Positions 22,508 through 23,906 of a stretch of 64,000 nt of DNA are shown piece after piece. Below the pieces are notes generated by a model, which did not search any database, was not told where the DNA came from, and saw only the letters and a list, made by a program, of their open reading frames with translations. The stretch comes from Ichthyenterobacterium magnum. GTDB lineage: Bacteria > Bacteroidota > Bacteroidia > Flavobacteriales > Flavobacteriaceae. How positions within the stretch are numbered: the first letter of the stretch is position 1; the number at the start of each line of letters is the position of its first letter. The position numbers and the translations under genes were made by a program. The DNA lies in the NCBI RefSeq assembly GCF_003610635.1, contig NZ_RAQJ01000001.1:1-64000 (forward strand). Direction: 5' to 3'.

Positions 22508-22515
22508 AAAAAAAA

Positions 22516-22540
22516 GCCTGCCGAATTTAGGTCGACAGGC
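22516..22540 (-). terminator. Hairpin with T tract abutting the MarR start codon
   Basis: On the minus strand GCCTG-T-CGA pairs with TCG-G-CAGGC (one mismatch), followed by eight T that run straight into the ATG at 22507. It can terminate transcripts coming from the DUF2024 gene (stop at 22563). Its first arm overlaps the predicted start point of the MarR promoter, so MarR-promoter transcripts may escape it. Confidence 0.7.
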
Positions 22541-22557
22541 AAAGTTAGTCATCCTAA
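22540..22557 (-). promoter_or_regulatory. MarR promoter -7 box with overlapping operator
   Basis: Minus-strand -7 box TAACTTTG (22540-22547) matches TAnnTTTG. The operator TTAGTCATCCTAA (22545-22557 on the plus strand) overlaps it by three bases and is a degenerate copy of the perfect inverted repeats at 23590 and 23894. Binding there would block RNA polymerase, consistent with autorepression. Confidence 0.6.
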
Positions 22558-22562
22558 TTAAA

Positions 22563-22826
22563 TTAATAACAGTTTTCCATTTCAATTATTGAATATCCCT
22601 TTTTGGCAATATCATCAATAACAGATTTAGGCGCAGTTTCTATATGACAAAAACGACATTCTTTTGTGGTTATAATTGGATTGGTAATCCCTTTTGTTTT
22701 CAAATATGCCTTTCCGAAGTTAAATACTATACTTTCATCTGTTACGCTACTTTGCACAAGAATATCAAAATGCATTGTTATGCTATCATCACGTTTTACG
22801 TATGTATCCCAAACTGAAACGTTCAT
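22563..22826 (-). CDS. DUF2024 family protein
   Basis: 87 residues. The start MNVSVWDTYVKRDDSITMHF and the end KECRFCHIETAPKSVIDDI are characteristic of DUF2024, a small soluble family of unknown function. The C-x-x-C-H motif (residues about 57-61) could bind metal or take part in thiol chemistry. It begins 4 bp after the stop of the secreted protein at 22831 and is certainly in the same operon, under the operator at 23590. Confidence 0.88.
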   Translation of the reverse strand: MNVSVWDTYVKRDDSITMHFDILVQSSVTDESIVFNFGKAYLKTKGITNPIITTKECRFCHIETAPKSVIDDIAKKGYSIIEMENCY

Positions 22827-22830
22827 AGGC

Positions 22831-23556
22831 TTATTGTTTTACATTATATGGTAATGACAAGTTACCACTTGCAACGCTATACACTTCATAAACACCAAGC
22901 ATTGGAAGTTCAAGATTACTCGTATTTACTTTCATAAACGCTGTAACACCATCATAATTAAAATCGGTTCTATTGTTTATTCTATAATCTGGAACTATTA
23001 CTTTTATGGTATTATTTGCAGTTGTTACAGGATATCCAGGGGAATCCATATACATTGGCATTCCTGGGTTTGTTGGTGGTAAAACAACAGTCATATCAGC
23101 TTTTTTAAATTGTTTAACCGAGAGCCCACCAGCAACTCTTTTATCTTCATGTAAAATTACCCAATGTGGGTGCCAAACAACTCCATCATTATTATAAATT
23201 GTATCATTATCCTCGTCCCATAATGGTGTATCGTCAAAATCTGGATGCGATGTTAAAGCAAGAGCTACAATACCTTCAGTTTGATTAAAACCTACGTCAG
23301 TTGGCTTTAAATTTGTTGGAAACACATACCCTAATACTAAGGCTCCATCTAGTTGCCCAACTTTTTTTGGAATTGTATGACCTGCTTTACCATTAACAGA
23401 TATTTCCCAAACGGTTATACCCAAATTCTTTTGATGTGTTACAGTTACTTCATTAATGTTGAAGTCTTCGTTATTGTATTTACTTTCTTGAGCGAAAGAA
23501 ATAAACGCAGTACAAGAAAATAAAACTATTACAATGATTGAGACAATTGATTTCAT
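22831..23556 (-). CDS. Exported protein of unknown function
   Basis: 241 residues. The N-terminus (SIVSIIVIVLFSCTAFISFA then QES) is a signal peptide; the Cys in LFSC could make it a lipoprotein, but the FAQ-E site fits better. The mature domain is beta-rich and aromatic (ITVWEISVNGKAGHTIPKKV, GVVWHPHWVILHEDKRVAGG), with histidines in WHPHW and a proline/methionine loop (PPTNPGMPMYMDSPGYP). The HPHW, HPDF and Met-rich elements could bind a metal; this is speculation. No family recognised. It heads an operon with DUF2024 and carries the perfect operator 34 bp upstream, tying it to the MarR regulator. Confidence 0.8.
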   Translation of the reverse strand: MKSIVSIIVIVLFSCTAFISFAQESKYNNEDFNINEVTVTHQKNLGITVWEISVNGKAGHTIPKKVGQLDGALVLGYVFPTNLKPTDVGFNQTEGIVALALTSHPDFDDTPLWDEDNDTIYNNDGVVWHPHWVILHEDKRVAGGLSVKQFKKADMTVVLPPTNPGMPMYMDSPGYPVTTANNTIKVIVPDYRINNRTDFNYDGVTAFMKVNTSNLELPMLGVYEVYSVASGNLSLPYNVKQ

Positions 23557-23589
23557 AATTATTTTGATTTAAAATTGGTGATTATTTAC

Positions 23590-23602
23590 TTAGGATTCCT
23601 AA
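23590..23602 (-). promoter_or_regulatory. Perfect MarR-type operator upstream of the exported protein gene
   Basis: TTAGGATTCCTAA is a perfect odd-length palindrome. It lies in the 60-bp gap between the thioredoxin-like gene and the exported-protein gene, 34 bp from the start codon. Two variants precede the other transcription units of this cluster. Confidence 0.65.
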
Positions 23603-23616
23603 TTATTTTGTTAAAA

Positions 23617-23850
23617 TTAACCTTTAACATCAGCCATTGAGGCTCCAAAATTGATGTGTAAGGTATGTCCATTTGGTGTTACTAAAGCTGGAACAGACTC
23701 TACACCTGCTTGCTCTGCTTCACTAATACGATTTCTGTTTTCGTCTATGTTCACGATTTCTACATTATCTGCTCCTATTAAATTGATAATGTCATGTTCT
23801 GCACTTATACAAACTGGACAGCCTGCATGGTAAAAAATTGATTTGCTCAT
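23617..23850 (-). CDS. Small thioredoxin/glutaredoxin-fold protein
   Basis: 77 residues, cytoplasmic, with the N-terminal redox motif C-P-V-C (IFYHAGCPVCISAEHDII), a following strand VEIVNIDENRN, the cis-proline in SVPALVTPNGHTLHINFG, and an early end. This is a minimal thioredoxin fold as in glutaredoxin-like proteins. It could reduce disulphides of partner proteins, possibly including the cysteine-rich MarR regulator. It has its own operator and promoter (23885-23906), the same operator type as the two downstream units, so it belongs to the same small regulon. Confidence 0.87.
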   Translation of the reverse strand: MSKSIFYHAGCPVCISAEHDIINLIGADNVEIVNIDENRNRISEAEQAGVESVPALVTPNGHTLHINFGASMADVKG

Positions 23851-23884
23851 CTTACTCTATTTTATGTTTTGAATTATTGCAATA

Positions 23885-23906
23885 CAAATATAGTAAGGAT
23901 TCCTAA
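23885..23906 (-). promoter_or_regulatory. Promoter and MarR-type operator of the thioredoxin-like gene
   Basis: Minus-strand -7 box TATATTTG (23885-23892) matches TAnnTTTG, and the operator TAAGGATTCCTAA (23894-23906 on the plus strand; one change from the perfect palindrome) lies one base upstream of it, in the spacer between -7 and -33. The placement mirrors that at the MarR gene. Confidence 0.65.

Follow-up and report, generated by a model that had tools for sequence, protein, structure and literature searches.

Does the MarR-family repressor encoded in this stretch of Ichthyenterobacterium magnum DNA govern its own gene and a small neighbouring gene set through one shared palindromic operator, and which signal would lift the repression? 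The locus lies on the minus strand of the window (the whole stretch of 64,000 nucleotides analysed here) and comprises genes for a thioredoxin-like protein (TRX), an exported protein (EXP), a DUF2024 protein and the repressor itself (Table 1). The preliminary description had proposed a MarR regulon answering to thiol or metal stress, and the palindromes that it placed at 22545, 23590 and 23894 were all present there, each closely upstream of the minus-strand gene named for it; it had also counted an exported protein of unknown function in the gene set, and EXP indeed has no Pfam assignment. The reading favoured here, which is regarded as fairly probable, is an autoregulated MarR stress regulon in which a C-terminal four-cysteine site (Cys4) would suffer damage from reactive species of nitrogen or oxygen, with nitric oxide (NO) as the leading candidate, taking the repressor off the DNA.

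Table 1. Genes and predicted regulatory features of the marR-TRX locus (window coordinates)
Feature	Position	Strand	Remarks
MarR-family repressor, 201 aa	21902..22507	-	Pfam MarR_2 1.6e-9, MarR 4.8e-8; winged helix and C-terminal Cys4
Terminator-like hairpin (22516-22540) and T8 (22508-22515)	22508..22540	-	Abuts marR ATG
Putative marR promoter, -7 box TAACTTTG	22540..22547	-	TAnnTTTG-like box at same offset in 69/78 loci
Putative marR operator TTAGGATGACTAA	22545..22557	-	Overlaps -7 box; kept in 78/80 loci, commonest form TTAGGATTACTAA
DUF2024 protein, 87 aa	22563..22826	-	Pfam PF09630 4.4e-30; PDB 2HFQ 4e-18
Exported protein (EXP), 241 aa, signal peptide	22831..23556	-	Matches no Pfam family
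Middle palindrome TTAGGAATCCTAA, perfect	23590..23602	-	Upstream of EXP-DUF2024; without -7 box; site in 67 loci
Thioredoxin-like protein (TRX), 77 aa, CPVC	23617..23850	-	PDB 2K8S 3.7e-22
Putative TRX promoter, -7 box TATATTTG	23885..23892	-	Same offset in 71/76 loci
Putative TRX operator TTAGGAATCCTTA	23894..23906	-	Between -33 and -7 regions; 76 loci, commonest form TTAGGATTCCTTA

Distribution of the operator in the genome and in flavobacterial relatives

When up to three mismatches were allowed, 39 motif matches were found in the window versus 37.9 expected from shuffles, which is chance level; therefore, the site at 22545 alone proves nothing. A scan of the genome, as the preliminary description had advised, placed TTAGGANTCCTWA at exactly two positions in 3.0 Mb, both in the marR-TRX locus, with a count of zero for the reversed-pattern control, and the site at 23590 is the sole perfect copy of TTAGGAATCCTAA in this genome. 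Outside the locus, ten one-mismatch sites were detected, nine of them within ORFs, and since these are fewer than in the reversed control, no added regulon members are claimed in this genome. No relevant paper on the operator motif was found in the literature searched.

The comparison set consisted of 80 named marR loci, nearly all from Flavobacteriaceae. MarR orthologues with 44 to 72% identity were identified in 10 of 60 relatives, and TRX orthologues in relatives were 54 to 88% identical. It was verified that the gene order TRX, EXP, DUF2024, marR recurs among the 80 loci, some of them without EXP or DUF2024, and that, besides these four genes, no other neighbour is conserved in more than 10 of about 80 loci. 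Of about 80 loci, 76 have a site with at most two mismatches before TRX, 67 before EXP/DUF2024 and 78 before marR, so that motif and genes do co-occur in related species, all three sites being conserved in about 80 flavobacterial genomes.

Promoters and transcription units

The Flavobacterium sigma-A box spans -12 to -5 (PMC9723704), so that the TRX operator would lie at about -26 to -14 and that of marR at about -22 to -10. For TRX (71 of 76 loci) and marR (69 of 78), the distance between the operator and a TAnnTTTG-like box is constant, confirming the earlier assignment of -7 boxes to two of the three operators; in the window, the TRX operator, read on the minus strand, ends one base before the box. 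Such positions of the TRX and marR operators are those expected for repression. On the other hand, the middle site has no such -7 box, and thus EXP and DUF2024 are probably transcribed from the TRX promoter. The earlier proposal of one operator before each of three separate units holds for the sites but probably not for the units, since the middle site lacks a recognisable promoter and EXP-DUF2024 is probably co-transcribed with TRX. The locus probably has two regulated promoters, those of TRX and marR, and one internal operator-like palindrome, which may be an internal operator.

Predicted RNA hairpins beside the operators

The hairpin that precedes marR in the window has a predicted energy of -15.1 kcal/mol (z -5.7), its 5' arm beginning at the final base of the marR -7 box and its T-run reaching up to the ATG. 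In relatives, a stem of at least five pairs was observed at 76 of 78 loci and a T-rich tail at 74 of 78, with many compensatory pair types. An RNA starting at 22534 (the predicted marR start is 22535) folds with only -0.4 kcal/mol, most of the 5' arm being missing. Because the marR RNA would lose this arm, the hairpin could halt upstream transcripts yet spare marR's own, and the element at 22508-22540 would stop read-through rather than marR transcription.

The TRX-EXP spacer of 38 out of 54 relatives contains a 12-pair hairpin whose 5' arm is the middle operator; in it, AGTTAGGAXTCC pairs with GGAYTCCTAACT and X/Y covary (T-A, C-G, A-T, G-C). Excluding loop-end C-A mismatches, 36 G-U versus 2 internal A-C combinations were counted, as for sense RNA. 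Shuffled spacers match the hairpin score in about 10% of cases, so that single loci are weak and the whole set counts. This RNA-type hairpin and the lack of a -7 box at the middle palindrome speak for palindromes that are RNA elements, or sites of another regulator, instead of operators. Such an explanation is considered very improbable, given that the sites before TRX and marR are located on promoters, that sites co-occur with MarR and follow their targets across loci and phyla, and that the second hairpin arm is absent from the TRX-EXP spacer of the window.

The MarR repressor and its C-terminal cysteines

The MarR family assignment is supported by PF12802 and PF01047 scores above cut-offs and by an AlphaFold model that matches MarR structures, with low confidence at the C-terminus, where Cys4 sits. 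The four cysteines (C163-x2-C166-x11-C178-x15-C194) are invariant in a 35-row flavobacterial alignment and in 34 of 34 aligned distant homologues, including those of Deinococcus, Nostoc, Spirosoma, Hymenobacter, Rhizobium, Phaeobacter and Sphingomonas. A palindromic operator at the repressor's own promoter was found at 78 of 80 loci and also in other phyla.

Three assignments to known regulators were rejected by profile scores: Rrf2/NsrR (PF02082, 20.1 bits versus a cut-off of 30; TIGR00738, 13.7 versus 73.3), the OhrR-type single-Cys MarR (NF052638, 26 bits versus 200) and the AdcR-type zinc MarR (NF038251, 29.5 bits versus 175). The nearest solved folds, MepR and SlyA, share the MarR fold (Foldseek E 4e-7; profile search 8e-13) but have no Cys4 tail and serve other regulons. 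With OhrR, MgrA/SarZ, AbfR and HypR the repressor has in common the MarR fold and the arrangement of an autoregulated repressor upstream of thiol-defence genes; however, these proteins sense through cysteines in or near the MarR core, whereas the window repressor has, in addition, about 45 aa of C-terminal tail with Cys4. The proposed logic is also akin to that of NsrR, an NO-sensing Fe-S repressor, in that damage of a Cys site by NO would derepress haem-based NO detoxification, although NsrR belongs to the Rrf2 family, which the window repressor fits far worse than MarR.

ArnR of Corynebacterium glutamicum has a wHTH domain reminiscent of MarR/ArsR and a C-terminal Cys-bound [4Fe-4S] cluster, and it represses hmp, NO abolishing its DNA binding (PMC12343034). 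The window repressor, which resembles ArnR as described, may work in the same way, but ArnR has three conserved cysteines (179, 193, 223) and no fourth (PMC12343034) instead of C-x2-C-x11-C-x15-C, and its operator and targets differ. The window repressor scored far below the cut-off of NCBIfam NF041016, named 'ArnR', which describes an activator and perhaps not the C. glutamicum protein.

The proposed regulon across Bacteroidota

In phylum-wide samples, the operator was found upstream of cytochrome P460 (L158, L159, L216, L220, L223, L227), of protoglobin (L147, L155, L156, and genome G113 in L154/L256) and of a TRX-DUF2024-truncated haemoglobin-marR operon (L149); the L154 protoglobin sits under a longer overlapping ORF and was detected by family search. 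Sites also occur away from marR, before P460 (L220, L223) and before TRX-EXP-DUF2024 (L215). Where the genome has MarR, a site with zero to two mismatches precedes most P460 and protoglobin genes, whereas the sites upstream of 11 such genes in genomes lacking it have three mismatches or more. TTAGGANTCCTWA was present in 31 of 37 MarR-positive versus 11 of 37 MarR-negative genomes (Fisher 5e-6). Additionally, EXP occurred in 5 of 17 MarR-positive versus 1 of 181 MarR-negative genomes (Fisher 1.5e-5, uncorrected for relatedness), and P460 and protoglobin were associated with MarR at Fisher 0.005 and 0.009, the genomes not being phylogenetically independent. Comparative evidence, including sites that follow their targets away from marR, thus supports the MarR regulon, the shared operator and the operator-promoter overlap that the preliminary description had put forward. 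The operator, the gene set, Cys4 and the promoter overlap are all features established by comparison between loci, and regulation of the gene set by the MarR repressor is strongly indicated.

NosZ was found in 13 of 17 MarR-positive versus 61 of 181 MarR-negative genomes, an association that may merely mirror aerobic life. The genome of the window is among the carriers, its nitrous oxide reductase NosZ (TIGR04246) lying at G000:C1:218722-220524; no P460, protoglobin or truncated haemoglobin match was obtained in it, which is a point against the favoured reading. At L147:6820-7464, a second protoglobin, apparently exported (signal peptide), adjoins the cytoplasmic one, both behind the same operator.

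Occurrence in other phyla

The core TAGGANTCCTA precedes orthologous marR genes in Pseudomonadota, Cyanobacteriota (Nostoc) and, with one mismatch, Deinococcota (Deinococcus). EXP and MarR homologues are carried on plasmids of Rhizobiaceae, Roseobacteraceae, Sphingomonadaceae, Deinococcus, Nostoc and others, and 11 of 16 such loci have TAGGANTCCTA within 250 bp upstream of marR with no more than one mismatch; the 16 include two Bacteroidota plasmids that lack it in this stretch. TAGGANTCCTA is also found before TRX (Nostoc, Novosphingobium) and before the EXP operon (Rhizobium sp. SSA_523). Outside the phylum, the neighbours include redoxin, Tpx, AhpD-like, TlpA, MOSC, SOD, catalase, Hmp, protoglobin, HTHP and NnrS; NO proteins are rarer among them than thiol peroxidases and disulfide reductases. 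By sequence comparison, the repressor and its operator recur in at least four phyla beside genes predicted to detoxify NO or peroxide, which suggests a hitherto undescribed sensor for reactive nitrogen or oxygen. MOSC-domain proteins recur beside Cys4 marR or EXP outside Flavobacteria (six loci), and several unrelated genomes (five loci) have a class-I glutamine amidotransferase-like gene in the vicinity of Cys4 marR.

Proposed mechanism and nature of the signal

In the mechanism that we infer for repression, signal, cofactor and the function of EXP, a MarR dimer would bind TTAGGANTCCTAA-type palindromes between -33 and -7 (TRX) or over -7 (marR) and would hold both promoters off. Its Cys4 site, with a presumed Fe-S cluster or zinc, would be the target of reactive nitrogen or oxygen species, foremost of NO, and the damaged repressor would leave the DNA, so that TRX, DUF2024 and EXP, which could bind metal, would be made. 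In relatives, the same switch would drive cytochrome P460, protoglobin or truncated haemoglobin. NO is preferred as the signal because of the P460 chemistry, the NO-binding globins and the co-occurrence of NnrS and Hmp; protoglobin and truncated haemoglobin bind NO. Cytochrome P460 oxidises hydroxylamine to NO or N2O (PMC11928373).

Since thiol peroxidases and disulfide reductases are the more frequent neighbours outside the phylum, the signal may instead be peroxide or general thiol oxidants. In such a case, the same repressor and operator would respond to peroxide, hypochlorite or another thiol oxidant through Cys oxidation or zinc loss, and the haem proteins of relatives would be peroxidases. 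The redoxin, Tpx, AhpD-like, TlpA, SOD, catalase and HTHP neighbours in Pseudomonadota, Deinococcus, Nostoc and Hymenobacter are consistent with this, as is the gene set of the window, with its thioredoxin-like protein and small Cys proteins. However, the operator-linked P460, protoglobin and truncated haemoglobin of Bacteroidota are known for NO/hydroxylamine chemistry, not for peroxide, and NnrS and Hmp are among the neighbours too, so that an oxidant signal is judged less likely, though still a serious contender. A metalloregulator responding to zinc, copper or similar through Cys4, with EXP as a periplasmic metal-binding protein, would suit the likeness of Cys4 to a metal site and the invariant His/Asp of EXP, but it is improbable, as a transporter, P-type ATPase or chaperone was never a recurrent neighbour in about 80 loci and the distant loci. 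Of the thiol or metal stress first suggested for this locus, the thiol/oxidative part is plausible, with the strongest evidence pointing to reactive nitrogen species and peroxides, and the metal part is unsupported beyond the cysteines.

Returning to NO, a broader and more tentative proposal is a class of MarR repressors, spread across phyla, that would sense NO through a Cys4 Fe-S site at the C-terminus and would have a fixed TAGGANTCCTA operator and exchangeable NO-detoxifying effectors (P460, protoglobin, truncated haemoglobin), for which the new exported metalloprotein would substitute.

Products of the presumed target genes

DUF2024 has a conserved C57xxC60H61 motif and C86. The literature yielded one passing mention of DUF2024 and no function paper for 2HFQ or 2K8S, orphan structures that are members of the DUF2024 and thioredoxin-like families of the regulon and whose source organism we take to be N. 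europaea. At L150:5868-6497, DUF2024 and truncated haemoglobin are fused into a single ORF, a direct link of DUF2024 to haem/NO chemistry.

In EXP, the residues H104, D106, D109, H129, H131, W132 and D171 are invariant among Bacteroidota, Deinococcus and alpha- and gammaproteobacteria, and this His/Asp set suggests a metal site. A profile search against PDB returned nothing, and the EXP model (pLDDT 73) had no significant Foldseek match; the top VIA match, at Z 5.9, was the N-terminal part of dopamine beta-hydroxylase, with antibody domains scoring equally, which suggests a beta-sandwich at most. Within the regulon, EXP occupies the slot that P460 or globins fill elsewhere, and it probably does a job comparable to theirs, with detoxification or protection as the best guess.

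Implications

The regulon gives context and a testable role to three uncharacterised families, namely DUF2024, the 2K8S-type thioredoxin and the exported HxH protein, with one operator before all three for which any genome can be scanned. To our knowledge, little is known of how cytochrome P460 is regulated, and if the signal is NO, this protein would be tied to a defined regulator. In that case, a MarR-based route of NO sensing would also be added, in a set of bacteria to which N2O reducers belong; the genome of the window itself has nosZ.
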